This document shows, in pieces, positions 1,359 to 56,459 of a stretch of DNA of 64,000 bases (the first letter of the stretch is position 1; the number at the start of each line of letters is the position of its first letter). A program made the translations under genes and the position numbers. Source of the DNA: Owenia fusiformis (lineage: Eukaryota; Annelida; Polychaeta; Sabellida; Oweniidae); NCBI GenBank assembly GCA_903813345.2, contig CAIIXF020000010.1:7679169-7743168 (forward strand), given 5' to 3'. Below the pieces are notes generated by a model. That model was not told the DNA's origin. It ran no database searches and saw only the letters and a list, made by a program, of their open reading frames with translations.

Positions 1359-2363
1359 CTAACTAGATTTGGCTGCATTAGGGCCCTGCTTAATGGGTGA
1401 ATCTCCCAGAAAAATCACCTCCCTTTCCTGTTCCATGATTCTATACTGCTGTTTTGGTTGTTGAGGTATTACATAGACTTCCGGCGCCTTGGGCTTCGAT
1501 ATATAAAACTTTTGGGCTGGTTCTTGAGTCTTGTCAGGTGCCTTATTAAGACATTTTTTAAAAGCTGGATGCAAGTTATTGGCATTTGGTTTATTCACTG
1601 GCTTCACGGCCATTACGATAGGGTTGCCATGCATAGTTTTATGTTGAACTGGTTTAACTGATAATGTTTGTCTTTGTGCTAAAGAGGTTATTATATTGCT
1701 AGCCAAAGCTCCTGTATTCAAAGGTGAGGACCCCGTGGCTGTTTGGCTAAGGGGTGTACATCCTAGACTACCAGGGGAGGTTGTTATCTTTTTCATTGCT
1801 TGAAATCTTTCCATATTTGAGACAAACTGTTGAGGAGCAGGAATTGGTTTAGGTTTTACAAGATTCACAGGGCCTGTTTCCTTAGGTGGGGGCAGGGTGA
1901 CCGTAAATTGAGTAATAGAATTTTTAGCTTTGGGGGTGGTGGATGTAGTTGGCTTGGGGGTGGGAGTGGTTACTTTGGTAGGTTTTCCTCCAGGTGTATT
2001 CCTACCAGTCTCCTCCTTTGCTTTATTTTTCTTGGTGCAATAAACCCATTCATTTGGGAATATTAAATCAGTGAGGTTATGCATTTCGAGGATATCTTGC
2101 TTTACATTCCAGCAAAGACGTTTCACATCCTCTCGTCTTTCCCACACTGCAATAGAACGAATTGTCTTCTCCAGCTGCCTGTTTGAAATCAGATATTCCT
2201 GAGTGGTTCCGATGTCTAAAGTTGTGGATTGATCATTTTGTGGCGAATTGGAGTTATCAGGTCTAGGAGATGGACCATTGGGGACTGGAGATTGACAAGT
2301 CCCAGGAGTGATAGTTCCATCTATTTCCATAGGTTCATTGGAATCTGTGGCCACAGGGACCTT
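1359..2363 (-). CDS. CHAF1A: CHAF1A coding exon 15 (C-terminal, winged-helix region)
   Basis: 1,005 nt ending in TAG, acceptor TTCTTGTAG. The frame begins AAG GTC CCT GTG; no Met start here, because the exon continues from exon 14. LISNRQLEKTIRSIAVWERR through CWNVKQDIL (about residues 888-922) matches the conserved C-terminal DNA-binding region of p150. The rest is Pro/Thr/Lys-rich and disordered-looking, with PEVYV (1124-1128) and EREVIFLGDSP (1143-1153) near the end. Confidence 0.93.
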   Translation of the reverse strand, partial: KVPVATDSNEPMEIDGTITPGTCQSPVPNGPSPRPDNSNSPQNDQSTTLDIGTTQEYLISNRQLEKTIRSIAVWERREDVKRLCWNVKQDILEMHNLTDLIFPNEWVYCTKKNKAKEETGRNTPGGKPTKVTTPTPKPTTSTTPKAKNSITQFTVTLPPPKETGPVNLVKPKPIPAPQQFVSNMERFQAMKKITTSPGSLGCTPLSQTATGSSPLNTGALASNIITSLAQRQTLSVKPVQHKTMHGNPIVMAVKPVNKPNANNLHPAFKKCLNKAPDKTQEPAQKFYISKPKAPEVYVIPQQPKQQYRIMEQEREVIFLGDSPIKQGPNAAKSS

Positions 2364-5300
2364 CTACAAGAACAAAACATCACCTTATTTATCAAATGTT
2401 ACTTTGAATATGATTTATAAAGACAAAAAGGACTTTCCTGTTTGTCTAGATAGCCGCATAATTCAATAGATCAAAATATGTGAACAAAAATTATTGAGCT
2501 TCACATTTGAAAACAAGAACACAAATGTGTACAAAATGTCCCCACCAAGTGGTGATCCCGTGAAATGGTTATCCTGAAAATGAGTAGACAAGACTTTACC
2601 AACACAATTTGAGGACGGAAAATCCAAAGTGGCTACCTTAAAATTTACCCAGAATGCCAAAAATTTAGTCAGTTCTAGATTTTCATACTAAGAACCACCC
2701 CTGAAAATTGGAAATTGATCCGTCACACAGTTAACCAGAAAACATGTAAACAAGACTTTACAGACAAGATTTCAGGATGGAAAATCCAAAATGGCTGCCT
2801 TGACATTTACACAGAATGTCAAAAAACTAATCTGTTTGTAGATTTTCATACCAAGAATCATCCCTGAAAATATGAAATTGATCTACCAAACGGTTCACCT
2901 GAAAACGGGTAGACAAGACTTTACAGACAAGATTTTAGGACAGAAAATCCAAAATGGCTGCCTTAACATTTACGCAGAATGCAAAAAAAGTAATCAGATG
3001 TAGATTTTCATACAAAGAATCATCCCTGAAAATTTGAAATTGATCTATCAAACTGTTCTCCTAAAAACGCGTAGACAAGACTTTACAGGCAAGATTTTAA
3101 GACGGAAAATCCAAAATGGCTGCCTTGACATTTACCCAGAATGCAAAAAAACTAATCAGTTCTAGATTTTCATACTAAGAATCATTCCTGAAAATTTGAA
3201 ATTGATCTACGAAACGATTCACCTGAAAACGAGTAGACAAGACTTTACAGACAAGATTTTAGGACGGAAAATCCAAAATGGCTGCCTTGACATTTACCCA
3301 GAATGCCAAAAAACTAATGAGATCTAGATTTTTATACTAAGAATCATCCCTGAAAATTTGAAATTGATCCACCAAACGGTTCACCTGAAAACGCGCAGAC
3401 AAGACTTCACAGACAAGATTTTAGGACCGAAAAATCCAAAATGGCCGACAATAAAAAAGTCCTTATGAGTTTTTGCTGATTTCTTTTTACAAAATTATCA
3501 CATATAACTACTGTTAACAATAAAGTAGGCTTTTACAGCAAAGTACATCTGAAATTATTTATAAAGCTACTAAATAGTTAAAGTATGAAAACTCAAAAAC
3601 ACCATTCAATATGATACAAAGTATTATCGCGCGCTAACTTTTCTTAAGACATTCAAAATGGCTGACATGACTGAGCTAGCAGGTCCAAAACCTAATCAGA
3701 TCTAGAATGAAGTGAGCTGAACAAGATGTTAAAGTTTTAAAAGCAACTGTGAAGCAGTTTTTCTTAAAGTTTGCAGACAAGGATTTTAGCATTTGACTTC
3801 AAAATGGCCGACAGGAAGTAGGTATCGAGTTAATTTTTTTTCATCCACATCTGTATGCACTCATAAGTTATCCCTGAAAATTTGAAGGTGATATCTGTAG
3901 CGGTTTTGGAGAAAACTGCCGGACGTACGGACAGACGGACAGACAGACGGACAGACGGACGGACGCGCCTAGGCCGACAATATGGCCCCACACTATGTGG
4001 TGGGACATAATAATCAATACATTCATTTAACCCTCAGAAAACTGAACAAATTGAAGTAAATTTCATTATGGTGAACTCTCCTCCCTCCATAATGTATAAT
4101 GAGATGAAAATGGTGATTTGCCTTTCACTTGAAATTTTCGTTATTTCCCCCTTCATCCTAATAAAATTAACTTTGTTCTTCCTATCCTATGCACAACTTT
4201 TGACATTTGAACACCAGTAAACACTGACTGATTCATTGAAACCTCTCTTAAGAAGACACATGGTACAATGTATGGTTTGTTCATAGGGTATTCATTTACC
4301 TCATGCTTTACAGGGTGTCCAATAAATAAGGTGAAAGACATTGTAACTTTCTTAATATTGCACCAATCTTGATGAAATTGTCAGACTTTGTAGCCCAAAC
4401 CTTTTTACCTGTATTCTGTGAATTTAAAGCGTCTTCTATTTGATTGGCCAGAGTTGTGGTTGCTATAGCAACGGAAACAAAAAGTCCATCTCTAGCTATA
4501 CATTTCTTATGCCTACTCACCCACTCTCTAAACACACTTTCAAACCCATTCTTGCCCATTTCCTGAAGTCTTGCTAGGACATGTGATCTGAGTTCATCAG
4601 TGCTTCCAAATTTATTTCCTCTCAAGTCACGCTTGAGTTCTGCATATAAGTAAAAGTCATTGAGTGCACGGTCTAGGGAATATGGAAGGTGTGCAAGTAG
4701 GGGTAGCCCCAGTACCCTTATAGTTTCACTAGTGAGCATAGCTGTGTGTGAACTCAGATCACATGTCTTAGCAAGACTTCAGGAAATGGGCAAGAATGGG
4801 TTTGAAAGTGTGTTTAGAGAGTGGGTGAGTAGGCATAAGAAATGTATAGCTAGAGATGGACATTATGTTGAATAGCTTATTTTCATAACAATGGGACTTA
4901 AGGACTGTTTTTATATTGTATTTTTGGTAGAAATAGACCTGGGAGTATGAATTAAGCTATCAGAAAGAATAAATATGTTTTGGAAAGTTATGACATAAAC
5001 AAACTTGCCCCGCCTTTTTGTTGTTTCGGTTGCTATAGCAACCACAACTCTGGCCAATCAAATAGAAGAAGCTTTAAATTCACAGTATAAATGTAAAAAT
5101 GTTTGGCCTACAAACTCTGAAAACTTCATCAACATTGGTGCAATATTAAGAAAGTTACAATATCTTTCACCTTATTTATTGGACACCCTGTATATGAGAA
5201 AATTCAAGTAATACACCTACACGAATCCTTCTCTTAAAACACATTAATCCACTTGCCTGTTCCAATGTTCCCATGCATTTTCTTTTCCAGAACTCTTTGA

Positions 5301-8300
5301 ATTCTGTCTTGAGCTTGTTACAACCCTGTGTACTCATATGTACTAATCGAATCAAGTCAGGTAAGGCTGCAAAATGAAAACAAGACATAGTACACATGTA
5401 TATATAATATTCTTGAGTTGAATTTCCTTAAAGTTTATGCAATAGTCAACTTTTTCCTGGTACAGTTATGAAAACTCACTCACAGATGTTCCGATCTTTT
5501 CTTTAAAAATGACAATAGTTTCTAAAGGATTCAGACATTTCTCTAATTTCAATTTCTAAAGATATATGACCTGGATGCATTTTAAATTCATTAAAGGTTT
5601 TTACATCTTGCTGATCGGTAGATTTTTTTCTAAAAATCCTTTACAATTCTTGAACAAGCCCAAAAACAATACCACTGACACTGAATTCAGAATGCCAGGC
5701 ACAAAAGATTGCTTTAACTGAAACTCACCTTCATCTGGTACAGGTTTCTTGCTACCGTGCTTCACTCCAGAATTTGCAGATGAATTGAGATCATCAACAG
5801 TAGGTGTTCTGCTACGTGCTTCTGGATCATCCAATGTGAGGTTCTTCATGCCTCCACTTAGCTCTGTTGGTATAGGGGCACTGAAGTCGCCCAGTAAACT
5901 ACATGCCTGTAATGTTTAGTTTAGATTCAGAAACAAGGCATTTACATCACCTGCCATTTGTTACAGACACCGAAAGAATTTGTCACAGACACCAAGTGCT
6001 GAACACTAATCGACTTTCACAAAAAGTTGGAGACTATAACAATATGTCAACACTTCTGGTGGTGACACAATAAACCATCAACAATTTCATTTATTTACTA
6101 TTTACTGTAAGAATTGAATCCCTCTTTGGATATTGCCCATCTGAGATCTAAGAATGGGAGGAGGGGTGAAATAATGCCATATAATGGGGACCAAACCTTA
6201 CCTCAAATTGCTGCAGAGTGTCTAGAATGGTCTGTTGTATATTCTGATCCAAGTACACGCAGCCCATACACAAAGATTTCATCTTGTCACATTTCTTCTT
6301 CATATCATTGTCAAATGCCTTTGCTTTCAGTAACTGCCGTGCTTTCATCTTACCAGGGCTGGACTAGAAACACAAAAAAGTATTTTATAGTTCCCTGAGT
6401 ATATGCTTATGACTTAAAAAATGGCATTGTGAATAAAACATAATTAATCAAAAATGAAATGATGGCTGTTAACCCAAACTTTCCCAAAATTTACATACGT
6501 CTTCATCAGCACTCTCTCCTCCCTCATCATCTGAGAGGTAGCCATGGGGAACAAAGAATCCATCATCTTCCTCATCATCCTGTTCCATCTTCTCTTCTTT
6601 GGCATCATCATCTTCCTTCTCTGAGTCTGACAAACTCTCACCAGGTTCTTCCTCTTCCCAGTCATCATCACTGTCATACTCATAGTCAAATACATTCTGA
6701 AATATTAGTCAAATACATCCTGAAATATTAACCAAATACATCCTGAAATATTAGTCAAATACATCCTAAAATATTGTCAAATACATCCTGAAATATTGGC
6801 CAAATACATCCTGAAATATTAGCCAAATACATCCTGAAATATTAGTCTGAAATATTGGTCAAACACATCCTGAAAAAGTAGTCAATAACATCCTGAAATA
6901 TAAGTCAAAGCATCCTGAAATATAAGTCTAATACATGAAGATCCTGAAATATTAATCAAATACACCCTGAAATATTAATCAATTACACCCTGAAATATTA
7001 GTCAAGGTGAATGAGCAATTTGACTTTTATTATAAAGCTGAATTTTTGACACATAAGCTTGCATATTGATATTATGTTCAAGGTTCAAATATTATCCCTC
7101 TTTAACTCAGCACTCCTAAACTGTAATTCAATTAAACGCCATACCTTGTCTAATCCTAGAGGATTTCTCCCAGTGACATGCTTAGATGTCTTCTTCCATG
7201 TACCATAGTAGGCAGGCCTGAAATGGTTATCCTCATTTCCACGGAACTTCAGGAATTTCACATGAATGTAGCGCTTGACCCCCTTCGCCCCTACTTCAAC
7301 CACCTCATCCTTTTGGTCCTCAGGCCTGAAATATATTTTAGTCTATTTAAATTTTATTATCTCAATCCATCCAATAATTTTGGAGACAAAATTTTCAGAA
7401 ATGGCATCATTTACATATAATGTCATCATTCACATAACTTTTTTCAAAGATCACATGTTGCTGAACTAGGACTTAAGATCCGAGACGAATTGAGGTAAGA
7501 GACTTACATCTTATTGGACAAATACTCAAATATGACACTTTATTTGACAGACCTGACACTTGGTGTTTAGAGATGACAAATGGACTTATGACACTAAAAG
7601 ACTATACAGGCAGGTTTGAAAAATGAGAATCAGCTTTGGCTTACAATCTTTTTTAATTTTAGAATGTTACATCGTTCTGGGTTGTATATCTGACATTGAG
7701 TTTAAGAGCTGCAATCAAGTTGGACAGAACTGACAGTCCATTGGAGTGAGCATTGGACAGAGCTTACTCAATGTTAGCAAAAACAACAACAAAACATTAC
7801 CATGGCCAAGTCTTTATGCCCTTCAGTGCTGTGTGTCCTTTTGATTTCAACAAATCAAGGTAAAGCTGCTTTGAGTCCTGGAAAAGTAAAGTATTAAAGT
7901 AGTGAGGTAATGTTATATTCAAATCATTGTATTTATAAGATATTGGGATGATATTTGTACTTAATACTAAGTATTGCAATGTAAGTATAAAATTCTCTAA
8001 AATATTGTTGGAAATCTGGCTAGAGGGGTACATAACTGAAGAATTATTGCATCTCCGATGTTGTATGGAAAATGTGTTACAATTGTACAACGAATCTACA
8101 TGAAATACATCAGTGATCCCTCCAGCTTTGATGTAGTTGGGACCCAAACCCACTTGAGATTTTGAAAATAGGCTTGCATCCACACCAAAAACCATTTTCA
8201 GCCTCTTCAAAATGAGAATTTAGTGTGCACTCTGTGTAAATAATGGGAGAGACCACAAAAGACTACAATCTAAGACACAGTCCCAAAACATGGCCAAATA

Positions 8301-11300
8301 GGACAAAAGGCATGTAAATACACTAAAAAGAATCAATTTTGTCTTGACTTCACTACTTTGTGCATTTTCAGGGGGTTTCAAAGCAAGACCTACTTGTGAT
8401 GACATCATGCTGTCCATCTCCTCTGTGTTTTCCAGCTTGGGACGTGGTTTGGCTGCCATCTTCATATGTTTCTTGACTTGAAATGGCATGAATGGCCCCT
8501 GGGACTCAACCTTTGGGGCTGTCACTATCTTAGGGGCAGCTTTAAAGAAGGCTCCAAAGAAAGCTTTCTTTGTCTGTTCATCCTTCTTTTTCTGATGAAG
8601 AAATTATTCATGGCATCACACAATATTTATACTTCATCTAGGGTCAGGGTCAAAACGCAAGACCCTTGTAAATCTTAACAGAACATAGACATACATTTTT
8701 CTCAACTCAATATTCAAGATTTTTTCCATTTTCTGTGTTTTTCTACCTTTTTACTCCCCCTTATATAAAAATATACCAAATATTCATTTCACGGAAACAT
8801 TGATAATTGACCAAGATGCTTATTATTGCAATGGTCGTGATTGACTCGTGAATGAGGACAAAACCTGCTCTAAGAGGTTTGTTTTATTTCAAATTTTAAA
8901 TATTAGGTCTACAAACCTTTTCCTCCTCATCTCGTTTCTTCTTTTCTTCAAGCTGCTTTTTCTCATCTTCTTTCTTTCGCTTTTCCTCATTTTTGGCACT
9001 AAAACATTGTAGATTCACATATTAATTTATTTTGGGGGCTCGGCTACATAAATTTGAGACCTAGAGCAGAACTAGCTTCTTAAGTTAACACATTTTGATC
9101 AAAGGTTTTACTTGTACAATAATACATAGGCTTTTTGGTCTGATATTCAAACGCCATAAACATTGTCCCGATTGTTCACAACTGAATAAATGTTGTTCTT
9201 TGTCAAAGATAGATACAGAGGTCTGTTTTTCAGGATGCTAACAGATTTTCAACAAGTCCGGATATAATCAAAATTTCTATGGAATCTTCACTGGAATGTA
9301 TTAAAATAATAATTTGAGCTTAAATCTAAACACTCACTCAATTATGGCTTGTTTCTTTTTTTTCTCTTCCTCCTTTTCTGCAAGTTTTTCTAATCGTTCC
9401 TTCTCCTTCAATTCTTTCTTCTCTTGTATCTCCTGGTCCCTCTTAGCCTTAGCATCTGCTTTTTCTTTCTCTTTACGCTCCTGTAAGATATCAAAAATGA
9501 TAAAGATATGTAATTTAGACATCATTATTGCTTTACACATTTGTATATCCTGAATTTTAAATTTCAGAATAATACTGATATGTCTAGCCTCCCATTGCCT
9601 TATTTGGAAAATACAGAAGATATTTCAAAATATTCCTACCTTTTCTTCCAGACGAAGCTTTTCTTTCTCCGCTTTCTCCTCTTCTCTTTTCTTCAGCTTT
9701 TCTTGTTTCTCTTTTTCCTTGAAACAAACCATTCAATTTTGAATATTTCAGTTCTTAAAATTTCATGTTTCTATAAAAGTGTATCATATCCACAGGCTCT
9801 GCATACTTTATGAATACATGTAAGTAATACCATGGGTAGGCTCTAGGGGTGAGACGAGTCGAAAAAATCTGATTCGAGTCGAATTCGATTCGAGTCAGAA
9901 AATGACGATTCGAGTTTCGAATCCGTTTCGAGTCGCGAAAGTGCGAACAACATCGCTTTTGACCGTTCGTATTTTTAATGCGTCAATGGTGGAAAGCCGG
10001 AAATATAAAAAACACAATTCGTCGTAAGTTTATTCTGATTTTACTACATATATTCTTTCATTTATGAGTACATACAATATAATAATTTAATACAAGCATA
10101 TCCAAGTCATTGAAACTTATATATTCAACGCAATATCGAGTAAAAACATGCATATTGACAGTATTTTTCTGAATTTTTTTATTTTTTCGAATTATTTCTC
10201 AACTCGAAAATGATTCGATTCATCAACTTCGACTCGATTCGACTCGAAGCCCCAAACCCGCGAGTCCTCGACTCATCGGGTTGTCGTCTCACCCCTAGTA
10301 GGCTCACATGGTATAGTGGTTTCAGTTGAACTGACAGCCATAATTTGACTATTTTTCAATGTTGTCATTATCATGACAAAATATAGACCTTTATTAAAAA
10401 GTCATTTTCCATTTTTAATACTTTCAAGAACTTTTATCCGCACTTCTAGTTGGACTTGAACATTTTAATGCAAAGTGAACCAATAATTCCCCAGATATGG
10501 CTCAGAAAGTTATTTTAGTACCAATTAATTGGATGCAATTGTAGCAAATCTGGTCAATCCATCATATGAAAGAAAGAATTCAACATACCCGTTCCTCCTT
10601 TTTCTTCTGTCTATCAACAGCTAACTTTGCCTTCTTACCACTGTTAGGGGTCTGAAAGTTAAACAAATTTAAACCATGGTAAAATTACTTATATTTAATG
10701 TCAAGTTACGACTCTTTAGCATCTCACTAAAACAGTGTGCTGTATTTGGTTCATGGCTCATATTTAACTTCCCTTACGCTAAAAGTAGATCATGTTTTGT
10801 TGATCTTTTTATTTAATTCCCTACAGTTAAAACTAAATTGTTTAACCTAATGAACTGCCTTTTGTAGCTATTTCCTTTTGGGAAAATGAGATATAGTTCT
10901 CACCGCTTAACTGTGGTACTACAAAACCTTATCAATAACAAGCAAACAGAAAGCAATACCTTAGAATTAGATGATGTATCAAGCTCATTATTAGGGGTGT
11001 CGCTTTCCTGTGTGTTACTTTGAATTGTACTAGGGGCATCAACCTCACTTGTGCTTGGAGCATCTTCAGTATTCCTTGGGGATGTTTTGCTGGATTTAGG
11101 GGTCTCTAAAAGGCTGTTAGATAAAGGAGTTTTATCATGTGTTGAACCTGGTGTCTTCTCTAACATAGATTTGATTGCAGTATTGCTAGTAGGCTTAGGA
11201 GAACTGAAGAAGGATGATATGGGTCGGTGCTGGACAGGGGTTGAATGAGTTGATCTGGGTGTATCAGTTGTTGATTTGGGTGTATCAGTTGTTGATTTGG

Positions 11301-15701: not shown

Positions 15702-15840
15702 CGTTGCACTTGTATGTGTCTGAATCGGTCCTTGAGATGCTGTACAATCGCCAAGCATATCAGAAAACACCAAAATGTGTAAGATGTGGCATTCAAATAA
15801 AATTAAAAAGAAGTTAGAAAAAAGTTTGTTGTCTTCAAAG

Positions 15841-15851
15841 TTGGCGGGAAA
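15841..15851 (-). promoter_or_regulatory. E2F-type site
   Basis: TTGGCGGGAAA, reverse TTTCCCGCCAA, fits the E2F consensus TTTSSCGC. It lies about 140 bp upstream of the CHAF1A ATG. E2F control is established for many replication-coupled genes, so it fits a CAF-1 subunit. Confidence 0.65.
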
Positions 15852-15884
15852 GGTCCAAATAAAAATCGGGTTTGCAAGATTTTG

Positions 15885-15889
15885 ATTGG
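15885..15889 (-). promoter_or_regulatory. CCAAT box (NF-Y type)
   Basis: AACCAATCA on the minus strand, in CHAF1A orientation, about 35 bp upstream of the E2F-like site. A CCAAT box plus E2F pairing is common in S-phase promoters. Confidence 0.5.
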
Positions 15890-40200: not shown

Positions 40201-43200
40201 CTTTTGCCCGGGTGAACTCTTGAATGTTCTTTTACTATAGCTCTATAGTCAATTTATAGTTTTTATACTCTCCCTTTTCCACTTGTGCTTACATATTCAC
40301 ACAAAGTATTAATTGAAATTGCCCATTTATTCTGCAGCCGATGATGAACAATGTGACATTTAAGCTCCAGCACTTAGCCATAGTATGTGGGTGAATAATG
40401 CGAATGCTGTTATTCTTGGCAATCACATTATAATGAATCAATGGCAAATTATACAATGTTTATAGAACTATCAGAAATTATCTTTATAGAGATAATGACA
40501 ATATACATGTTCAATGGTTTAACAGTTTCCTCTGTAAGTTCTTTCATTTCTATTTCACCTCTTCCTGAGAGTGAGAAGGTTCTTTCATTCATTCTGGGAA
40601 GGAACTGATTAATCTGTCATTTTATATTTTAATTTCTTGTAAGTGATGCAATATTTTAGCATGTGACTGTGATATAGTACCATTTGGAATATTCTGTTTG
40701 AACGGCAGTTTAATTTATGAATTATTCAACTTTTTCATCATCTCCAAGAAGTATTGACATTAAGCTTGTTATAGCCACCATTTTTTGCATCTGTAACGAA
40801 TTGATACATCTTTGTATCTATTTGCAATAACTTACCAATTGTTGACATTTTGTCACGTTAATGCCTTCTCAATAGTTGTCATAAAAAAGTGGAGTTTTAT
40901 GGCCAGTTTTTCCAATCCTATTGCCAAGAGTGAACAATTTTTGACATTGACAATTTGGCAACTGTTATTTCTAGCCCTGGTGTGGTGAATGCTACTCGGA
41001 GCTCATAAAATTGTTTGAATTGATAGGTTCATTAAGTTGCGATGAATTTATAGTAGTTTATAGAACATACTAGAATTTGAGATGATAAAGTATCCATAAT
41101 TTTATTTCATAATGTTCAATTTAGAGGGCTGGTTTCATTCAAAGAAAGGTTGTAGTGTACTAATTGGTAAATTGAAGCACATGGACAGTGAACGGAGTTT
41201 ATAGTTAACACATTCAGATCCAGGAAGAGAAAGGATTTGGTTACATGGAAGTTAATGTGCTAAACAAAATCTGTTTGATTGGTTTGGAAAATGGTGTATA
41301 CTAATAACCTATTACTGCATTTCTTAAAACATACTATGGTTCTATGATTCCTTTCTTCAAAACACAAATTAATTCATGAATTTTAGTTTCATGAGATGTT
41401 TCAGTCGTAGCCACAGTTGCAAGAAAATGTATGATAAATTAGGAAATCAAGCCAAGTATATGAATGGAATTGAAACATTTCTTGATTAACAATGGGTTTA
41501 CTTAGGAAAATAATGAAGCAGTAGATAATCTTATCGATAGTCCGCATATGTCAGTCACATGTCAATTAGTGTATGGTTCAACTAAAGATAATATGTATGA
41601 ATTTTACTTCTTAATTAAATCTGCTCATATCTATTAACAGTGGTATTATAAGGGTTATGTTATTTTTAGGAAATACTTATGTCTTGATTGAAATACCCTC
41701 ATTTTTTGTTGATTGCAATACTTTTATTTCTGGTTGATTGGAATTCCTTCATTTTTTATGTCACCACCAAAAAGTGGTGACATATTGTTATGGTCTCTGT
41801 TTCTCTGTTTTTGTGACGTTGGTTGGTGATTGGCAGTCAGCGGTTGATGTCTGTAACAAATGCTGGTGACATTTTGCATGTTAATGCCTTGTTGGTTGAT
41901 TGTTGGTAAATTGTATGACCAACTGGAATGTTTATAAACATTGACCACCTTACTTAGACCATTGTTATAATGATATGTTTATCTACAACTAGTCACTTTT
42001 AGACCTATTTAAGATAACAATGTACTATGACTGTACTATTGCTCATATCAAGGGGTCAAATTATAACAAAATGAATCATACTGAAAATTCTACCCATTTT
42101 ATCCTCCTTTGTAATTTATGTCATGATCCTGTTCTCTTTATCTTTTCCTCCCAATCCTTTTCTCCTGATCCCATTCTCTTAATTGTATTCTCCTAATCCT
42201 GATCGCCACACGTGAACATATCGACCAACTTACCATGAAATATATGTTAATAACACTGGATATATTTTCAGGGGTGTGTCTCGCTGAAGCTGGAGAGTCC
42301 TACAAACAACTGGCAGATGTGAAATATTCACTAGAAGATAATGTGAAACAGAATTTCCTGGACCCACTTCATTACTTACAGACCAAAGAATTGAAAGAAG
42401 TTAATGTAAGAATCAAGTGTATTTTCTATACAGTTAAACCTGTCTAAGTGGGGAACACCTTTAGTGTTCCATTTGTGAGGTGTTCCACTTAAAAAGGTTC
42501 ATTTAACATTAAGTCAGTTGATCTTGGGACTCTGAAAAGTGTTCCACTAGCAGAGGTGTTCCACTTTACCCCCCTATCACACCAAACTAGTTCTTACCCG
42601 TTCTTGCCAGTCATACGAAAATGTCGTAAAACGGGCTCAATCTGGCTGCGGTCGGAATATATGTCTAAAATAATTAGCTACTTCGTTCATAAACAGTCTT
42701 CAATACGTCCATCTCGTTCGCAGTTCGTTCAGGTCACACCACGTCGGTGTGCAACATAGTATAAACCGTCCCTTAGTCTAAAAGTTCATCATGACCTGAT
42801 TACAGAACGGTATGGTGGCCATCGAATTTTGAATCGATTCAAAATTCTAAATCACATTCCCCGTCCGGGAAAGTCCATGAAGTTCGTAAACAGACCGTAG
42901 AACGTTATAGCTACGTTCATTCAGTTCGCACACAGTTTAAAACCGATTCGGCAACGTTTTGACGATCACCAGAAAATTTTGAGCATGCTCTAAGTTCTGG
43001 AGGACCTACTCGTTTGAGTAGGTTCATGAAGTTTGTGAACAGATCCCAAACGGTTATTAGTGGGTTTTTAGTACGTCAAATCCGTTCGTGCACAGTTAAA
43101 GCCCGTTTTCGAGAACGTAGTGAGGACTAGTTTGGTGTGATAGTAGGGTTACAGCTTTCACTGTATTTGAAAAACCATGGAACAGAAAACATTAAAATAC

Positions 43201-46200
43201 AGTCTAGAGGTAATAATAACTGCCTTCTGACTAGAATAAAACATTTATTTAACAGCTGAATGCTGATAATGTCTGAATGACCCCGGAAGTAGCTGTCGTG
43301 GCCTTCCTTTTGAATACGTAATCCATTCCAGCTACTTCCAGCTACTTCAGTGACTGCAAAGTTAGCTTCGATCAAAGGATTATCTCTAACTGAAATTGTA
43401 CAGATGAACATTTTTCTTTAAAAGATTCTAAATTAAAATCTTGAACAGAGTAGAAAAAGACAGATTCTGTCCTTAGTTATAGCAAAATACAACTAAACCT
43501 GTCTAATTTGAACACTACAAGGATCCACCAAGAGTGTTCAAATCTCCAGGTGTTCATACATTTCAAGGTTTTTTTAACACAGAAGTATCGTTTGATAAAA
43601 ATAGGACCAAAAAGCAAAAATCGTTCAGATTAGAGAGGTGTACTGATATTCTGCACCAGAAATCCATTGGCTTAAAAGTCTATATTTCAGTTCATCAATC
43701 TATACAGAATACTTTAAATATAAATTACTGGCTTTTTGATATAAATATGTTACATTGATTTTAATAAAAATAAAAAAAAGATACTAGAGATAGTACTAGG
43801 TATGAAATTATAATAAGAATTCATGATAGCTACTCCCTCATCAATTGGTTGGTCAATAACACTACCATATTAATTCAATTTCGCATCAGGATAAATTGAT
43901 AACGGAAACATTTTCACGGCTGAAGAACTATAATTGCTCTATTTTTATACTTCCTAATATTAGAGATGCTGTAGCCATTTTATATTCAGATAAATTTCTG
44001 TCACGTCTCAACTGATCTGTAATTTTCTTTAGGTCTAATAAGAGTTTTATTTTTGCATCAGTTGTTTTCTGAGAAATTCGAGATCAAATAATTTAATCAA
44101 AATTTAGCACGAGCAGCAACACAATAGACTACATGCGAGTAGAAAAGCAATGTCATATTTGAAATCTGCATGTAAAATTAAATCTAGAAATATGGTTTCG
44201 AAAATTGTCTATCAACTTTGAAAATTTAATTTTTTTGAAAATGTGACTTCTCGTTTGGGTTGACTCCCCATAGACCCCATTTTACAAAATCACAAAAAGT
44301 GAATTATCTTTTCTTGTATTGGACAGATAACATTTTCTTTTACTGGACATATTTTAATTTGCATAACTATTAGATACATAAGAGTTATATGAAAATTGAA
44401 CCACACAAATAGATGTAATTTAAGTTAAAGGGAACTTTCTACTATACACCCCATGCTATCTGACCCGAACGAGCCACCTGATGGTGAATCTGGTAACTAC
44501 CTACTCGCATCTGTGTTATTTAGGAAAAAACATTGAGCAAAGGCAATCTGTGGTGATGTCAAAACCTTACCTTAGTGATAACAACGAAAAAAGATTATAA
44601 GCAATATTTTTTTCTAAGTTTTTGTATGTGCGCTTATGGAATCTCACAATATCTTATCCTTTTAAATTTAAATTTGGAAACTGCACTCTGCATTCATTAG
44701 AGAGGATACAGTAATTTTTGATCTAGCCTCCATTCAATCAGAGTATGTCAGCATAAAGTCAGAACACTACATTTCCTCCCTCTTAAGTAACTCACATTCA
44801 ACTTATTCAAACTCCCATCAATGAAATTACCGTTCAATCAAAATGTGTCAGCAGAATATCACGACACTACTTCACCTTCCTGCCTTGTAAGTGAAATATA
44901 CTCAACTCATTCAAACTCCCATCAATTAAATAACTGTTCAATCAAAATATGTCAGCAGAATATCACGACACTACTTCACCTTCCTGCCTTGTAAGTGAAA
45001 TATACTCAACTCATTCAAACTCCCATCAATGAAATTACCGTTCAATCAAAATATGTCAGCAGAATATCACGACACTACTTCACCTTCCTGCCTTGTAAGT
45101 GAAATATACTCAACTCATTCAAACTCCCATCAATTAAATAACTGTTCAATCAAAATATGTCAGCAGAATATCACGACACTACATTACCTTCCTGCCTTGT
45201 AAGTGAAATATACTCAACTCATTCAAACTCCCATCAATGAAATTACCGTTCAATCAAAATATGTCAGCAGAATATCACGACACTACTTCACCTTCCTGCC
45301 TTGTAAGTGAAATATACTCAACTCATTCAAACTCCCATCAATTAAATAACTGTTCAATCAAAATATGTCAGCAGAATATCACGACACTACATTACCTTCC
45401 TGCCTTGTAAGTGAAATATACTAAACTCATTCAAACTCCCAAAAATGAAATGAAAGCTAAATAAGTTCTTCAGTATAAAAACTGAAACTGTAAATCGTCT
45501 GTCGTAGTCAGAGGGTAGTACACCTAGTCAATTGGGATTAAGGGTACATTTGTTCCAGTGTACAAAATTCAATTTGGAATTATAGATAGATTGTTCTGGT
45601 GGAGATAATTAGATTTTCTTATTGACAAGTTAATGATACATATCACCATGTGCTGTTTCTTTGAACTATTGAATTATTTAATTTTCTTCCTTAGTCAAAA
45701 ATCCATAGTCCATGAAATGAAGTAAACATACTAATTATATTCTTGAAACATGTATCTATACTCATAAGGATCTGTTTTTTAGCATATAAATTTGGTGTAT
45801 CAAAACCTTGTTATTCATATATATGCAGCAGAAAGGATTATTTAATAATCTGAATAGCCTTTATTGGCTGAAAGTCAAAAATTTACAATTATTTAAATTC
45901 CATATTTTTCCTGTTTTCAGCACCACCGCAAGAAGCTGGAAGGCAGGAGGTTGGATTACGATTGTAAAAAGAGGAGACAAGTTAAAGGTATTTCGAACAT
46001 TCTTGTTAACATTTAAGAGTTCTTTAAACGTTCTTCTTGAGCTCATAGCTCTGGAAGTTGTTCTCTTGGGGCCATTGCTGTGAAGAGCTACAGACAGTCA
46101 GAAATGGGGCAAAAGTGAAATTTTTTTTAATTTTTAAACTTTTCACAAAAATTGCTTAAAAAGAGATATTTTGTGCACAAGGGTAGATTTGAAGAGAGTA

Positions 46201-52200: not shown

Positions 52201-55200
52201 CCCAAATTAAACTATGAATATTCAAAAGAGGACATTTAAATCTACAAGATGTAAAGATAACAAATTGGTCTGAAGCAGGGATAATGCTCAAATAGACCTA
52301 TTCAATATAAATACAAGTCTCGATTTGGGGAAAGAAGTTCATCAGTGTACTGCGCTAATATTTTTTTGCAAAAAATCTAGAAATATTACCCAAATTAAAT
52401 TATGACTATTCAAAAGAAGACATTCAAATCTTTATTATGTAAAAAAATCAAATTTGTCCGAAGCAGGGATAATGCTCATTTAGATTGACGAACTTCGTTC
52501 TCCAAACCGAGAATCGTCCTTTGAAAATTAAGTCTCTCAGTGCTGGCATAATGTCTTATATTCAGTACTTACATCTCAGAAAATTGTTTACAAGTACAGC
52601 ATTCAGTCTTCTTCAGTTTTTACATAGCTACCTTGATATTATACCTGAAAAAGGAATTATGGTTCAGCAATTGCAAAGTACTACATGGATAATGGATATG
52701 TCATGATGTGTGTTATATAGGAGCAAGCATTACAGAGGATGAGATTAGAATGGCAGAGGAGAAGTTTGAAGATTCCAAACAGCTTGCCGAGACTGCAATG
52801 TTTAACCTTCTGCAGAATGATGTAAGTTTAAGAGAAAAACAGTGTGTGTTTTCAAATGTTTCAAACTGTTTGTTTAGAGGAATTTTAAACATTTGAAATT
52901 TTAATTTTTTGTCATTTTCAGTCTATACATAATTTTTTAGAATACTTTAAAATTGTCACAAATGGTCAATTAGATGTAATGACTAACATGAGAATTTTTA
53001 GAGAAATTATCCATCCAAAATCCTGATGACAGAAACACTTACAAGTGAAGCATTAACACCAAGCTAAAGTGTAATAAATATTATCTATTATATTTTCCTT
53101 GATAATTATAGGTGGAGCAAGTGTCCCAATTGACATCATTTGTCGAATCCCAGTTAGATTACCACCGTCAGGCCTCCGAGATACTACAAACCTTGTTAGA
53201 GACACTGCAGGAAAAGTAAGTTGTCAATAAACATGTATTTAGGCCCCTCTTAACCAGTTAAGTAATCCCTTAAAAGAGCAATGGAAGGCTCTTAAGGGTA
53301 ACATAGGATGGTTGTACCCAAAGGAGTGGTATCGATGTGGAGAACTGAATTCAACAATGTTTTTCTCTTAAACCAATCATTGAAAACACTCTGTAAAAAA
53401 ACACAGTATTTTATGTAATGTTGACTGATTGACAACAATTTAGGCTAGGCCTAATCCGTAAATTATTTAGAAATATTTTATTTAACTGTTTTTGTTAACA
53501 TTTTTTGTTTTTTAGTGCAATTGTTTTTGCTCCTTTCCGAACCTTTTTGGAACAAAATAGCATATACAACATGTTTTTAGACCTCTCAATATTATAGTTA
53601 TACAAAGGAATTTTTGGTTGATTTAAAAAAGTATTCAAAGATAAAAATAAAATCCCCCAAAATAGATAAAAATGAAGATAAAACCTTTTATTTCATTAAC
53701 AAGATACTTTTTTAAAATCAACCAAAATTTCCTTTGTACAATTACAATATTGAGAGACCTAAACATGTTGTGTTTATGTCGTTTTGTTCCAATGAGGTTC
53801 GGAAAGATGTTTCATTTCACTCTGGAAACATGATACCAAGAACCAAGATTTTTTTATGACTGGTTTAAGAGAAACGTGTGTTCAAAATTCAAAAAGTTCT
53901 CCATATCGATACCACTCCTTTCTTGAAACTAGGACATACACAATAGCACTTAAAGTATTTATGTTTCCCTCAGAGAATCCCACAGAAAGGATGTCTCCTT
54001 TAAAAATTATACATCATTCCATTGTACTTGATGGATATTATACAATTAACAAGTTGCACTATTTTGCTGAGGGGTGCCTGAATTTCTGGTAAAAGTTATA
54101 ATGGCATAAAAACAAACATACATTTAACATGTTATATTATTTCTAATATAAACAATTACAATCGATATCCCTTAGGTAATTGCCAAGGTTTTACAACATA
54201 TTGAGAAATGCACTAAAAATTAGAAAAACAACATGTTGTACAACTTTAATTGTGGAATTTCTTGTGAAGATTTTACATGTTTTATTGTGCCCTACATAAA
54301 ATATAATCTGATGTTTTATATTTATGCATTTCAGAGGTAACGAGGCAGCGAGTCGACCTAAAAGAGAGCATATTCCCAGACGAGCAACTTCCAATGCATC
54401 ATCATACAAAGGAGACAATGGAAGTATCTCCTCTCCTTATGATAACAATTCTAATGGAGTAACTGAAGCAGCAGTATTCAAGCCACAGTATGAATCTGGT
54501 GAGTAAGGCCTAAACATTCTTGTGACCTTATTTTGAATATTGCAATATGGATTGTGATGACATCACAATGAAAATTGCATACTAGGGGTGACAAGGATGA
54601 GTTTAGAACTGTATTCGAAACTACTTCCACTGTTTAAATCTGATCCAACCATTTAAAATGTAATATGTTTAAATTCTTTTCCTAAACTATATTTTATTGA
54701 ATTGGTTTAAGGCCTTATAAGAAGTGATGTGATTTAATTTTTTTTTGGACTTACACATTAGTCACATTTGCGCCGAATGCCGGTCAATAAGCAAGCCAGA
54801 GACTTTTTTCTGATGTCTTGGATTTGCCTTGAGTATGGTCACATAAGGTATGGGCACCATACAGCACCCTCAAACAATTTGTCAAAATTAAAATGAACGG
54901 AAATCTGAAGGATTCTGTAGGTAAGGAGCCATTAAGACACCTTGGAACATGTTAGGTTATATAATTGTTCTTCCAAGATGACTGTATGATAATTATCCCA
55001 TCGTAGAAGTTCGGAGGGATATAGGGAACGCCTCCGTCCATCCGTCCGTCCATTGGTACGTACGTACGTACGTCCGTCCGTCCATCCATCTGTCCGTATG
55101 TACGTCAGTCCATCCGTACGGGCAATAACTCAAATACCGCTGTCCCGATTTTGTTCATATTTTATACATATATACCCTATGGGGGTAGAAGTTCTGCTCT

Positions 55201-55962
55201 AAAGCCGATTTTAAAAATGGCGACCATTTTAGTGCCGATTTACAGAAATTTAGGTGCAATATGTAAAAAAGTTATATAGGACATTAATAAAGCTAGAAAT
55301 GTAGATATTAAAGAAGCACATGGCAGTCATCTTGAAAAATGGCTGCCTTTTCTCGTTATTTTACGATTTTTGCTGTAACTCGAAAAGTAGTAGAGTGATT
55401 TTGTTCATATTTGGTATGTGAATACTATAAGCATGGCACACTGTCTAATGACACTTTTGGTAGAAGGTGCCCATTTTGAAGGTGGCCATTTTGAAAAATG
55501 GCTGCCATTTTTGCTATATACTTTGTTTGTAAAAATGCCAGCCATGACTGTTTGATGGGATTTTCTACGCTTTGGTGTTGCTGTTGTCTAGTTGTACGAT
55601 GCCATCAGCAAGATTTATCTCCACATTTGCAGGCTCCGAGCAACCATGTGGCAGTTAAAATCAGTCGGTATTGTCTGACAATCTCCTGGGATACATACAC
55701 CAGTTTAAATTGGAGCAAATGTAACTAATGTATTATCCAAATATTTTCAATATATTGTTGTTTTATCATTTCAGCGGAGAAATTCCCTTGCTGTAAAGCA
55801 TTGTACGACTTTGAACCTGAAAACGAGGGTGAACTAGGATTTAAGGAAAATGACGTCATCAAATTAACACAAAGAATTGATGAAAATTGGTTTGAAGGAA
55901 GCATAAATGGAAAATCTGGATTCTTCCCTTGTAATTACGTAGAAGTGGTCGTTGATGTGTAA
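16197..55962 (+). CDS. SH3GL: Endophilin-A (N-BAR and SH3 protein), 10 coding exons
   Basis: Cytosolic membrane-bending protein of clathrin-mediated and fast endocytosis; its SH3 domain recruits dynamin and synaptojanin in studied species. Exons: 16197-16241, 26717-26785, 33404-33476, 37349-37492, 42272-42405, 45921-45987, 52721-52821, 53112-53215, 54335-54498, 55775-55962. Sum 1,089 nt, 362 residues (vertebrate endophilin-A about 350-370). Residues 1-21 form the amphipathic H0 helix ([15 protein letters not shown]). N-BAR domain to about 248, with the insert helix near 62-85 ([20 protein letters not shown]). Variable linker about 250-303. SH3 about 306-360 with ALYDF (309-313), ENWFEG (Trp339) and FFPCNYVEV (350-358). 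All phases match and all introns are GT-AG. Invertebrates often have one endophilin-A, so the paralogue number is not assigned. Total span about 40 kb; intron 1 alone is 10.5 kb. Confidence 0.96.
16350..18050. mobile_element. Large foldback element, interrupted in its left arm
   Basis: Left arm 16350-16594 (TACTCCTGGTTAACTGTTA onward) is an inverted copy of the right arm ending at 18050 (TTAACAGTTAACAAGGAGTA). The match continues inward for about 30 bp at 17251-17280 against 17770-17806. About 90% identical by eye. The left arm is split at a TTAT by a 652-bp insertion. No coding potential. In endophilin intron 1. Confidence 0.8.
16595..17246. mobile_element. MITE inserted in the foldback, TTAT duplication
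   Basis: 652 bp with imperfect termini GGTGTCACTACGGTAAAT and ATTTACCGTAATAACACC, flanked by TTAT at 16591-16594 and 17247-17250. The opposite arm of the host foldback keeps the uninterrupted sequence with one TTAT, giving an empty site. No coding. Confidence 0.8.
18472..18854. mobile_element. Second, truncated inverted copy of the TTAT-type MITE
   Basis: Reverse complement of most of the left half of the 16595-17246 element, ending at TACTGTAGTGACACC. The other end is truncated near the GGTGTGTATAGTAGG motif. Similarity runs about 380 bp. Confidence 0.75.
18880..20660. other. Intron 1 stretch with nothing recognised
   Basis: AT-rich, short chance open frames only, no splice-compatible conserved peptide and no clear repeat structure. 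Confidence 0.5.
20685..20835. repeat. Dispersed repeat with GGATATCCTATGATTTT ends
   Basis: ATAGGATATCCTATGATTTT is at its left end and AAATCATAGGATGTTCTA at its right end, so it has inverted termini. A related copy is at 21848-21950. The LINE relic lies between the two copies. Confidence 0.6.
20987..21760 (-). pseudogene. LINE (non-LTR retrotransposon) ORF2 C-terminal relic
   Basis: The minus-strand frame reads [40 protein letters not shown], then [20 protein letters not shown] followed by [20 protein letters not shown]. The ETGR..RxCxxC..xEDExHFLxxC pattern is typical of the C-terminal zinc-knuckle-like region of several LINE clades. There is one in-frame stop near 21686 and no reverse transcriptase core, so it is a 5'-truncated dead copy. 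The LINE tail is toward 20840. Confidence 0.82.
21848..21950. repeat. Foldback repeat with GGATATCCTATGATTTTT ends
   Basis: Short inverted-repeat unit; ends GAGGATATCCTATGATTTT and AAATCATAGGATATCATA, with an internal TTTTTATCCATGAGTGGATAAAAA hairpin described here by its arms TTTTTATCC / GGATAAAAA. Confidence 0.65.
23324..23466 (+). pseudogene. SANT/Myb-like first exon of a Harbinger-like element
   Basis: ATG at 23324 opens [20 protein letters not shown], then [14 protein letters not shown] with donor GTAAGC. The spacing Trp...KN..Y..I...M resembles the trihelix/Myb-like proteins encoded by Harbinger transposons. It is not a host endophilin exon: no phase-compatible role. Confidence 0.5.
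23976..24801. mobile_element. 826-bp foldback element, CAC...GTG termini, 5-bp duplication
   Basis: Near-palindrome starting CACAGGCTGGTATCGAAA and ending TTTCGATACCAGCCTGTG, flanked by ACAAT at 23971-23975 and 24802-24806. The motif TGTCCGCTGTGACGGAGC occurs four times, near both ends and on both sides of the centre (24361, 24404). Arms about 390 bp. No coding. Confidence 0.88.
24810..25064 (-). pseudogene. Possible Harbinger transposase N-terminal fragment
   Basis: Reads [20 protein letters not shown] and on to [20 protein letters not shown]. The RxxWxRxRSxxxFxxxV pattern is Harbinger-like. No DDE catalytic part remains, and the frame runs into the nested foldback. Confidence 0.45.
25930..26470. 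repeat. 28-bp minisatellite, about 18 copies
   Basis: Unit ACTCATGTTAATCTACATCA plus CTGTTGTA, in direct tandem with mild variation. It ends about 250 bp before endophilin exon 2. Units abut without spacers, so it is not a CRISPR array. Confidence 0.92.
26717..26785 (+). CDS. SH3GL: Endophilin-A coding exon 2
   Basis: 69 nt, phase 0/0, acceptor TTTTCAG, donor GTAAGT. Encodes [20 protein letters not shown] and MER, the first part of the BAR domain and strongly conserved in the family. Confidence 0.95.
26790..29600. other. Endophilin intron 2, first part
   Basis: No gene or clear element. A phrase GACATCTCATTTCTTCTCA (about 27894) recurs at about 34743, so a small dispersed repeat is present. 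Confidence 0.45.
29608..30000 (-). pseudogene. LINE ORF1 relic (coiled coil and RRM-like part)
   Basis: Minus-strand frame: a coiled-coil-like [20 protein letters not shown] and [16 protein letters not shown], a stop, then [32 protein letters not shown] and [10 protein letters not shown]. The order coil, then N.x.x.HG, then AHxIG matches L1-type ORF1 proteins. One internal stop and an early end show it is dead. Confidence 0.7.
30004..30119 (-). repeat. GTGTTCCACTT-type MITE, copy 1
   Basis: On the minus strand reads TACAGTAAAGTCTGCC ... GGTGTTCCACTTATAAAGG ... GAGACTCTGAAAAGTGTT, colinear with the copy at 42431. Confidence 0.6.
30130..33050. other. Endophilin intron 2, later part
   Basis: AT-rich DNA with short homopolymer runs. 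No coding exon or named repeat seen. Confidence 0.4.
33063..33203 (+). repeat. GTGTTCCACTT-type MITE, copy 2
   Basis: Starts near ACAGTAAAATCTGGCTAA and ends CAGGCTTCACTGTA; middle GAGGTGTTCCACTTATAAAG and TTCAACATAAGTCAGTTA. It lies 200 bp upstream of endophilin exon 3. Confidence 0.65.
33404..33476 (+). CDS. SH3GL: Endophilin-A coding exon 3
   Basis: 73 nt, acceptor TTTCCAG, donor GTAGAT. Encodes [20 protein letters not shown] and QPNP; ends one base into a codon. Confidence 0.94.
34198..34354 (+). mobile_element. GTGTTCCACTT-type MITE, copy 3 (complete)
   Basis: 157 bp, starts CAGTAGAACATG and ends GTTTCTACTG between two TA dinucleotides, suggesting Tc1/mariner-type insertion. Contains three GTGTTCCACTT words. 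Confidence 0.7.
34799..34918. repeat. Perfect 60-bp tandem duplication
   Basis: The 60-base block beginning CTAGCCTCATCAAACCTTAA is repeated once directly after itself without a mismatch that I can see. Confidence 0.9.
34930..37340. other. Endophilin intron 3, later part
   Basis: No gene or clear repeat recognised; AT-rich. Confidence 0.4.
37349..37492 (+). CDS. SH3GL: Endophilin-A coding exon 4 (insert helix)
   Basis: 144 nt, acceptor ATTTCAG, donor GTAAGT. Encodes [20 protein letters not shown], the membrane-inserting insert region of endophilin N-BAR, then [20 protein letters not shown]. Confidence 0.96.
37500..39255. other. Endophilin intron 4, first part
   Basis: No coding exon. A short hairpin at about 38764-38842 (GGCATAGCCAGGGGG / CTGGCTATGCCCCTGG) may be a small MITE. 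Confidence 0.4.
39260..39665. mobile_element. MITE with ACACCCCAGT termini
   Basis: 406 bp; starts ACACCCCAGTGACATTT and ends AAATGTGACTGGGGTGT, between TA dinucleotides. Interior relatively GC-rich with CGGCGGCC and CGCCGTAGAAA words. No coding. Confidence 0.75.
39670..42260. other. Endophilin intron 4, later part
   Basis: No gene. It contains dispersed-repeat pieces: TTGTCACGTTAATGCCTT at about 40850, a related phrase at about 41872, and a GTCACCACC/GGTGGTGAC-type hairpin at 41760-41783. Confidence 0.4.
42272..42405 (+). CDS. SH3GL: Endophilin-A coding exon 5
   Basis: 134 nt, acceptor TTTTCAG, donor GTAAGA. Encodes [20 protein letters not shown] and [20 protein letters not shown], the central BAR helix. 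Confidence 0.96.
42431..43163 (+). mobile_element. GTGTTCCACTT-type MITE, copy 4, split by another MITE
   Basis: Begins TA|CAGTTAAACCTGTCTAAG, runs through AGTGTTCCACTAGCAGAGG, is interrupted at 42577-43140, and ends ACAGCTTTCACTG|TA. It begins 26 bp after the end of endophilin exon 5. Confidence 0.65.
42577..43140. mobile_element. MITE with TCACACCAAACTAGT termini
   Basis: 564 bp; starts TCACACCAAACTAGTTC and ends ACTAGTTTGGTGTGA, with TA on both sides. Interior repeats GTTCGTxxACAGT-type words in several places. Nested in the preceding element. Confidence 0.82.
44733..45440. repeat. 104-bp tandem array with 208-bp alternating structure
   Basis: Copies of ATGTCAGCAGAATATCACGA recur every 104 bp from about 44847 to 45367, with a divergent copy near 44747. 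Successive units alternate CAATGAAATTACCG and CAATTAAATAACTG, so the true repeat is a 208-bp dimer. In endophilin intron 5, ending about 480 bp before exon 6. Confidence 0.92.
45921..45987 (+). CDS. SH3GL: Endophilin-A coding exon 6
   Basis: 67 nt, acceptor GTTTTCAG, donor GTATTT. Encodes [20 protein letters not shown] plus VK, the basic concave-face segment conserved in endophilins. The overlapping plus-strand open frame is a different frame. Confidence 0.95.
46854..48950. mobile_element. 2.1-kb inverted-repeat element, CAC...GTG termini, AAAAT duplication
   Basis: Starts CACGGTGCCCATGTCAAGC and ends GCTTGACATGGGCATCGTG; TIR about 46 bp. AAAAT flanks it at 46849-46853 and 48951-48955. About nine words of the type CAAACTGCGCGCC or its reverse are spread through both ends. 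It is interrupted by an 851-bp foldback, leaving about 1.24 kb of its own sequence. A short minus-strand frame at 48874-48819 ([18 protein letters not shown], then GTTAGT) could be an exon remnant. Confidence 0.88.
47573..48423. mobile_element. 851-bp foldback element, CAC...GTG termini, TTGTA duplication
   Basis: Near-perfect palindrome: CACCCTATGCAGACAGAGCC at the left, its complement at the right; TTGTA at 47568-47572 and 48424-48428. Arms about 420 bp meet at 47980-48010 with GGTGCGGAGCTACG. Matching open frames on both arms are an artefact of the palindrome. Nested in the 46854-48950 element. Confidence 0.9.
49498..50069. mobile_element. Mariner-like element with about 175-bp inverted repeats
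   Basis: 572 bp, starts CAGGGTGGTCAAAAAAATGG and ends in the complement, flanked by TA. Long inverted repeats 49498-49670 and 49893-50069. Its middle encodes on the minus strand a transposase tail. Confidence 0.85.
49684..49890 (-). pseudogene. Mariner/Tc-type transposase C-terminal fragment
   Basis: Reads [20 protein letters not shown] and [20 protein letters not shown] then [10 protein letters not shown]. The LWGYxKDRVYxxxxxxLxxLKxxI pattern is usual after the last catalytic Asp of mariner-related transposases. Catalytic residues are absent. Confidence 0.7.
50100..52120. other. Endophilin intron 6, later part
   Basis: AT-rich, no gene or recognised repeat. Confidence 0.4.
52130..52520. 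mobile_element. MITE with AGGACGATTCTCGG termini and internal direct repeat
   Basis: 391 bp; starts AGGACGATTCTCGGTTTGG, ends CCAAACCGAGAATCGTCCT. Two direct internal copies of about 170 bp share GAAATATTACCCAAATTAAA and GAAGCAGGGATAATGCTCA. It lies 200 bp before endophilin exon 7. Confidence 0.8.
52721..52821 (+). CDS. SH3GL: Endophilin-A coding exon 7
   Basis: 101 nt, acceptor TTATATAG, donor GTAAGT. Encodes [20 protein letters not shown] and [14 protein letters not shown], the last long BAR helix. Confidence 0.95.
53112..53215 (+). CDS. SH3GL: Endophilin-A coding exon 8
   Basis: 104 nt, acceptor AATTATAG, donor GTAAGT. Encodes [20 protein letters not shown] and [14 protein letters not shown], the end of the BAR domain; YHRQ matches the family. 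Confidence 0.95.
53320..53921. mobile_element. 602-bp foldback element
   Basis: Starts AAAGGAGTGGTATCGATGTG, ends ATCGATACCACTCCTTT. The inner arms also match: AACATGTTTTTAGACCTCTC with its complement near 53745-53775, and GGAATTTTTGGTTGATTT with AAATCAACCAAAATTTCC. In endophilin intron 8. No coding. Confidence 0.82.
54335..54498 (+). CDS. SH3GL: Endophilin-A coding exon 9 (linker)
   Basis: 164 nt, acceptor ATTTCAG, donor GTGAGT. Encodes [20 protein letters not shown] and a Ser/Asn-rich linker between N-BAR and SH3. Little conservation is expected here; the phase fit on both sides supports it. Confidence 0.92.
54990..55720. repeat. Dispersed repeat with GTCCGTCC simple repeat
   Basis: Begins with a CCGTCCATCCGTCCGTCC / GTACGTACGTACG tract, then AAAATGGCGACC-type sequence and TTCTACGCTTTGGTGTTGCT. 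A short related copy is at 22620-22740 (TACGCCTTGGCATTGCTG). Confidence 0.6.
55775..55962 (+). CDS. SH3GL: Endophilin-A coding exon 10 (SH3 domain)
   Basis: 188 nt, acceptor ATTTCAG, ends in TAA. The whole SH3 domain is in this exon: [40 protein letters not shown], then EVVVDV and stop. Confidence 0.97.
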
Positions 55963-56451: not shown

Positions 56452-56459
56452 GTGTGTTA

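Follow-up and report, generated by a model that had tools for sequence, protein, structure and literature searches.

Gene content and organization of the locus

The window, by which we mean the whole stretch of 64,000 nucleotides analysed here, contains two complete genes lying next to each other on opposite strands with their 5' ends facing, which is the arrangement of divergently paired genes. The CHAF1A gene occupies the minus strand from 15701 to 1359 (15 exons, 1164 aa) and the endophilin-A gene the plus strand from 16197 to 55962 (10 exons, 362 aa). Both gene models come from hand splicing of the window sequence, and their parts are as follows.

1359-15701, minus strand: CHAF1A (CAF-1 p150) coding region, from hand splicing, Pfam and PDB sequence match
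15701-15689, 12186-12121, 11900-10960, 10651-10589, 9717-9640, 9480-9338, 8998-8917, 8591-8394, minus strand: CHAF1A exons 1-8, hand splicing
7877-7801, 7325-7145, 6696-6499, 6363-6202, 5906-5729, 5366-5257, 2363-1359, minus strand: CHAF1A exons 9-15, hand splicing
15689-15701, minus strand: CHAF1A first coding exon of 13 nt, made of the ATG and ten further bases, with a GTAAGT donor directly behind it; in-frame join to exon 2
15702-16196, no strand assigned: gap between the start codons, the proposed divergent promoter zone; GC 0.319, CpG observed/expected 1.13
16197-55962, plus strand: endophilin-A coding region, N-BAR plus C-terminal SH3, from hand splicing, Pfam and PDB sequence match
16197-16241, 26717-26785, 33404-33476, 37349-37492, 42272-42405, plus strand: endophilin-A exons 1-5, hand splicing
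45921-45987, 52721-52821, 53112-53215, 54335-54498, 55775-55962, plus strand: endophilin-A exons 6-10, hand splicing

Every exon of the two models is in frame. When every donor and acceptor was tabulated, 45 of the 46 intron ends were GT or AG; the acceptor is AG in all 23 introns and the donor GT in 22 of 23, the sole exception being a GC at 5255-5256 (minus strand), after exon 14, in the last CHAF1A intron (intron 14). Six of the nine endophilin introns span 3.5 to 10.5 kb. Exactly 495 bp separate the ATG of CHAF1A (15701, minus strand) from that of endophilin-A (16197, plus strand), and no reading frame of at least 100 aa overlaps this gap. Hand splicing thus bears out the original prediction of a divergent pair with start codons 495 bp apart, and the stops at 1359 and 55962 agree with it.

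Identity of the two proteins

CHAF1A matched the Pfam families CAF1A_acidic (2.4e-21), CAF1A_dimeriz (2.3e-19) and CAF1-p150_C2 (3.6e-9), that is PF11600, PF12253 and PF15539, all above the curated cut-offs and with best stretches at residues 354-506, 577-651 and 867-962. The acidic KER, dimerisation and p60-binding C-terminal regions hence follow one another in the order of the CAF-1 large subunit, and the whole protein retrieved CAF-1 subunit A (chain A of CAF-1 structures) among PDB sequences at 2.7e-61. A single 71-aa exon searched on its own gave no match to PDB sequences, nor did the first 60 residues up to E 10. Near the N-terminus, KRLKQARLPFQVL, read over the join of exons 2 and 3, is a candidate PCNA-binding motif, and we presume it to resemble the human one. 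The Borrelia_P83 family also matched the charged repeats of the protein (2.9e-13), which was taken as a match of composition.

In the endophilin, BAR (PF03114, 6e-76) covers residues 6-244 and SH3_1 (PF00018, 1.6e-13) residues 308-353. The protein aligns to endophilin A1 from residue 1, and the N-terminal amphipathic helix, judged from this alignment only, completes together with BAR and C-terminal SH3 the architecture of endophilin A. The PDB search returned A1 (1.8e-91, 310 bits) and A3 (9.5e-90, 305 bits) ahead of endophilin B1 (7.9e-24, 88 bits), so that the protein appears nearer to endophilin A than to endophilin B. Identity over the BAR region is 58% to A1 and 62% to A3, as would be expected if the gene predates the vertebrate duplications.

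Repeats and further reading frames in the window

Six-frame Pfam scans of 1-1358, 16242-56000 and 56001-64000 revealed no further gene. Nested genes were sought in 16242-56000 up to E 0.01, where only endophilin's own BAR and SH3 pieces and DUF1497 appeared, the latter below its cut-off (E 0.0061 and 0.0078) and within the satellite at 44.8-45.4 kb. Neither tRNA genes nor Rfam families turned up anywhere in the window when it was scanned for them. In viral contigs, none of 3 pattern matches to endophilin and none of 11 to the CAF-1 middle region was confirmed as a relative, and a repeat signature was found neither there nor in bacterial or archaeal genomes.

Several introns carry repeats. Intron 10 of CHAF1A (6697-7144, minus strand) consists largely of tandem copies of a unit of about 23 bp that joins the 3' splice site to the beginning of the following exon (tatttcag-gatgtatttgac); it holds 14 TTTYAG in 448 nt, with TRF rows between 6683 and 7005, and might give rise to many alternative 3' splice sites. 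Intron 14 of the same gene contains, at 4309-5192, nested inverted repeats, the outer with arms 4309-4483/5018-5192 (175 nt, 93%) and the inner with arms 4476-4596/4749-4869 (121 nt, 98%). Amid them lies a reading frame of 156 residues, whose sole Pfam match, to PRORP (E 0.0034), was sub-threshold and which we take to resemble a mariner-type transposase remnant. The highest CpG observed/expected ratio of the window (up to 2.62) falls at 9718-10400 in CHAF1A intron 4, in a stretch rich in gactcgaatcg-like repeats. Intronic tandem arrays are found at 2573-3445 (162 bp x 5.4), 25932-26455 (28 bp x 18.8) and 44798-45451 (104 bp x 6.3), while downstream of endophilin two arrays, at 60321-60520 and 62713-62916 and about 2.2 kb apart, apparently share the same 31-bp unit (TAAGAATTATGTCACTGTATGTCACATATTG). 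Two open frames had no Pfam match. One of 230 codons (20990-21679, minus strand), in endophilin intron 1, presumably resembles the tail of a non-LTR retrotransposon protein; the other, of 120 codons (61994-62353, minus strand) and protein-like in composition by eye, could belong to the next gene as an exon or have arisen by chance.

Composition and motifs of the intergenic region

The GC content of the whole window is 34%. The CpG observed/expected ratio of the gap (1.13) is raised over that of the window (0.48), the CHAF1A body (0.44) and the endophilin body (0.50), and falls short of the highest values in the window: the top 15 segments of 300 bp (1.46 to 2.62) all lie elsewhere. The motif scan used 17 patterns, picked after the sequence had been read, and three elements matter here; the factor names attached to the gap motifs (E2F-type, CRE, E-box and so on) are putative.

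15843-15850, plus strand: E2F-type core GGCGGGAA, unique in the window and 142 bp away from the ATG of CHAF1A
15885-15889, minus strand: CCAAT box (ATTGG on the plus strand), with 1.04 expected by the window's density and so uninformative alone
16050-16063, no strand assigned: TGACGTCACGTGAC, from the motif scan, a CRE (16050-16057) overlapping the E-box palindrome GTCACGTGAC (16054-16063)

The CCAAT box also fits the stricter RRCCAATSR (from 15883, 0.10 expected), and the CRE/E-box ends 134 bp ahead of the endophilin ATG. Between the E2F-type site and the CRE/E-box the sequence is very AT-rich, with a GC of 0.12 at 15952-16001. The GGCGGGAA and GTCACGTGAC of the gap have no second copy in the 64 kb, and the gap also contains one of three TGACGTCA and one of seven CACGTG; one of the window's four TTSSCGC also lies here and coincides with GGCGGGAA. 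The shuffle test covered 4 of the 17 patterns: among 5000 dinucleotide shuffles of the gap, GGCGGGAA recurred in 13, TGACGTCA in 33, GTCACGTGAC in none and CACGTG in 205. Other motifs were observed in the gap at counts of 2 for TATAWAW (1.48 expected), 2 for TTTGAA (1.40) and 3 for YCTTTY (1.76), and seven of the 17 patterns (NRF1, Sp, ATGGCG, ETS, GABPA, YAACGG and GCGCGC) had no site there.

The gap is better read as two neighbouring promoters, with a separate element for each gene some 135-140 bp from the respective ATG, and its layout would fit two core promoters placed back to back more than a single symmetrical one. A shared promoter is plausible but unproven. CHAF1A is labelled G1/S in one source (PMC5453983, in the part available) and tabulated among genes controlled by p53-p21-RB signalling in another (PMC9090780, likewise), and an E2F-type site near it would fit both. 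In a sponge, according to a passage of PMC4773876, the frequency of an E-box motif is four times higher in bidirectional promoters than in unidirectional ones, and the commonest element of those promoters is the GC-box, which is absent from the gap between CHAF1A and endophilin.

First exons and transcript starts

The original prediction had named a distant first exon of either gene as an argument against it, and this was addressed with a splice-site score trained on the same 23 introns, with cut-offs passed by 22 of the 23 true sites. The CHAF1A strand of the gap yielded neither acceptor-like sites (1.83 expected per 495 bp) nor donor-like ones (1.03 expected). The endophilin strand carries two acceptor-like sites, at 15980 (score 7.2) and 16156 (score 9.4), with 1.59 expected per 495 bp, and two donor-like sites, at 15711 and 16076, with 1.05 expected. 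With two acceptor-like sites in the gap, endophilin may have a distant first exon, and its promoter could lie elsewhere. A misreading of the 13-nt first CHAF1A exon was considered and rejected, the exon joining exon 2 in frame with no acceptor-like site upstream in the gap; the support for this is weak, because the score derives from the same introns, and on this basis a distant first exon for CHAF1A is not favoured. Bidirectional promoters are defined as a class by transcript starts under 1 kb apart, and the 495 bp measured here lie between start codons.

Neighbourhood in vertebrates and in the fly

The human locus on 19p13.3 has the same two gene families side by side as the window. We take human CHAF1A and SH3GL1 to be on opposite strands and to face away from each other, and their spacing to be about 2 kb between transcript starts, against 495 bp between start codons here. 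The fly homologues, Caf1-180 and endoA, are presumably on different chromosomes, and the linkage would therefore not be universal. That the human genes are neighbours, as originally stated, is supported by a printed table in PMC9409227, in which an oral-cancer super-enhancer on chromosome 19 (4,367,944-4,403,867) is given with MPND 'downstream', SH3GL1 'in gene' and CHAF1A 'upstream'. The two are also consecutive in a cattle list printed in PMC7668599 ('HDGF2UBX, N6, CHAF1A, SH3GL1, STAP2, MPND'), which maybe does not follow strict map order and whose garbled entry before CHAF1A we read as UBXN6. Both genes fall within one human 19p13.3 amplification peak in a passage of PMC2873534, which shows closeness and not adjacency. 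From the published tables (PMC9409227 and PMC7668599) the pair consists of neighbours in vertebrates, as ancient microsyntenic pairs do.

A larger conserved block, with MPND past endophilin and UBXN6 past CHAF1A, was looked for in 56001-64000 and 1-1358, where no Pfam family appeared up to E 0.1. Neither vertebrate flank gene was recognised in these flanks of 8 kb and 1.36 kb, which are too short to bear either way on a block extending past the pair. In the passages that name the genes, the head-to-head arrangement is not discussed, though its absence from print is not claimed; in the literature on microsynteny and bidirectional promoters the pair is unnamed in titles and abstract openings among the matches listed.

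Chance against a probable inherited linkage

Close spacing on its own is only mildly unusual: under an exponential gap model with a mean of 5-40 kb, a gap of at most 495 bp has P = 0.094 to 0.012. The striking part of the pair is the identity of the partner. In a random-order model with 20,000 genes, a named gene becomes the divergent 5' neighbour by chance with a probability of about 2.5e-5, a figure from a simple model that is uncorrected for the choice made in the original prediction of what to report, and that by our own multiplication is three times as high if each of the three endophilin-A genes of vertebrates is accepted as a match. This makes inherited linkage the best reading, and much likelier than chance. 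The idea that CHAF1A and endophilin were joined independently in the Owenia lineage and in vertebrates draws on the fact that divergent pairs can arise independently in separate lineages (as stated in a passage of PMC2670823) and on a comparison limited to this window and vertebrates; against the chance figure above, even when tripled, we regard it as extremely unlikely.

The published record on the age of such pairs is mixed. Passages of PMC6292497 give 25% (3,950/15,884) of neighbouring genes in bidirectional promoters in amphioxus, 12.83% in mouse and 7.84% in zebrafish, and report that most of 372 putatively ancestral bidirectional promoters were lost in vertebrates. PMC12672016, in the part available, reports conservation in Drosophila for 66 of 1399 human divergent pairs and in C. 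elegans for 50. A view cited in a passage of PMC3403606 confines the conservation of bidirectional pairs to vertebrates and has them reshuffled between invertebrates and vertebrates, and PMC2670823 argues, in the portion available, for independent origins of such pairs in insects and in vertebrates. Deeply conserved divergent pairs are thus a known minority class, to which CHAF1A and endophilin-A would belong.

The pair is ordinary in kind. With divergently paired genes and bidirectional promoters in general it has in common the adjacency, the opposite strands, start codons less than 1 kb from each other, the raised CpG ratio of the gap and the unrelated partners; it differs from bidirectional promoters in that its gap is AT-rich and without a match to the NRF1, Sp or ETS patterns. 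As in the ancient metazoan microsyntenic pairs of Irimia et al. 2012, as described in passages of citing papers, non-homologous neighbours are common to an invertebrate and vertebrates, whereas, unlike in those pairs, no distal regulatory element is shown for CHAF1A and endophilin-A. The original prediction had further held that unrelated products make the pairing unexpected, which is contradicted by the accessible text of PMC3403606, where such partners are usual in bidirectional pairs: all 35 of 35 partners of bidirectional DNA-repair genes are outside DNA repair, and the selective force on such pairs is said not to come from co-regulation of the partners.

Interpretation of the divergent pair

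The gene models, their orientation, the spacing and the motif positions are observed in the window, and the neighbourhood in human and cattle comes from tables. We infer a common ancestry of the linkage, a promoter mechanism and a reason for retention, and the reading that we consider probable is that of an old divergent pair served by two core promoters placed back to back. CHAF1A and endophilin-A would have been head-to-head neighbours in the ancestor common to this invertebrate and vertebrates, and would still flank a single promoter zone of 495 bp in the window. The zone would work as two core promoters inside one region of open chromatin, with the E2F-type element (together with CCAAT) driving CHAF1A in proliferating cells and the CRE/E-box element driving the endophilin gene. 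The main reason for the pair's persistence would be that breakage within such a short zone severs the proximal control of one gene, and not that the two proteins work together.

It is possible, though on balance rather unlikely, that the genes are ancestral neighbours which no rearrangement happened to part, with independent promoters and no selection for togetherness. The element that apparently lies near each gene's own ATG is in keeping with such passive inheritance, as is the human spacing, since a gap above 1 kb (presumably about 2 kb) would mean that the linkage outlasted a compact shared promoter; on the other hand, 495 bp is short for a stretch with two genes found (P 0.012-0.094), which suggests some constraint in this lineage. 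We think it improbable that selection has favoured a single control region keeping chromatin assembly and endophilin in step, for instance in proliferating cells. CHAF1A and SH3GL1 do occur together in a 31-gene Fra-1-dependent signature of human breast cancer (in the excerpt of PMC5400527), and the oral-cancer super-enhancer interval is assigned jointly to MPND, SH3GL1 and CHAF1A (table in PMC9409227), but both human lists may stem from shared amplification or proximity alone, the gap elements differ between the CHAF1A side and the endophilin side, and co-regulation does not explain the retention of bidirectional pairs in the available text of PMC3403606.

To our knowledge neither CHAF1A nor endophilin is a developmental regulator, and this counts against the suggestion that a distal enhancer, in the long endophilin introns or farther away, acts on CHAF1A or on some other gene and so locks the pair together. 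The length of most of those introns would leave room for one, and enhancer-like signatures were reported for 43 of 60 old microsyntenic pairs of a sponge (in a passage of PMC5429095); all the same, we hold such a bystander arrangement to be very unlikely. Bolder still, and so speculative that we give it little credence, is a bilaterian-wide unit in which S-phase chromatin assembly on the E2F-type side would be tied to a nutrient/cAMP-type membrane-trafficking gene on the CRE/E-box side, kept for more than 500 million years for balance of output and loosened only in vertebrates after genome duplication.

Overall, the old divergent pair with two adjoining core promoters, as favoured here, reveals no new kind of system. 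If confirmed in more phyla, it would add one more old divergent linkage with functionally unrelated partners, of use in finding out whether gene order can be frozen by short promoter zones alone. With two distinct elements, one near each gene, in less than 500 bp, the pair is a simple test case, and it may serve as a linkage marker in the comparison of invertebrate and vertebrate chromosomes.
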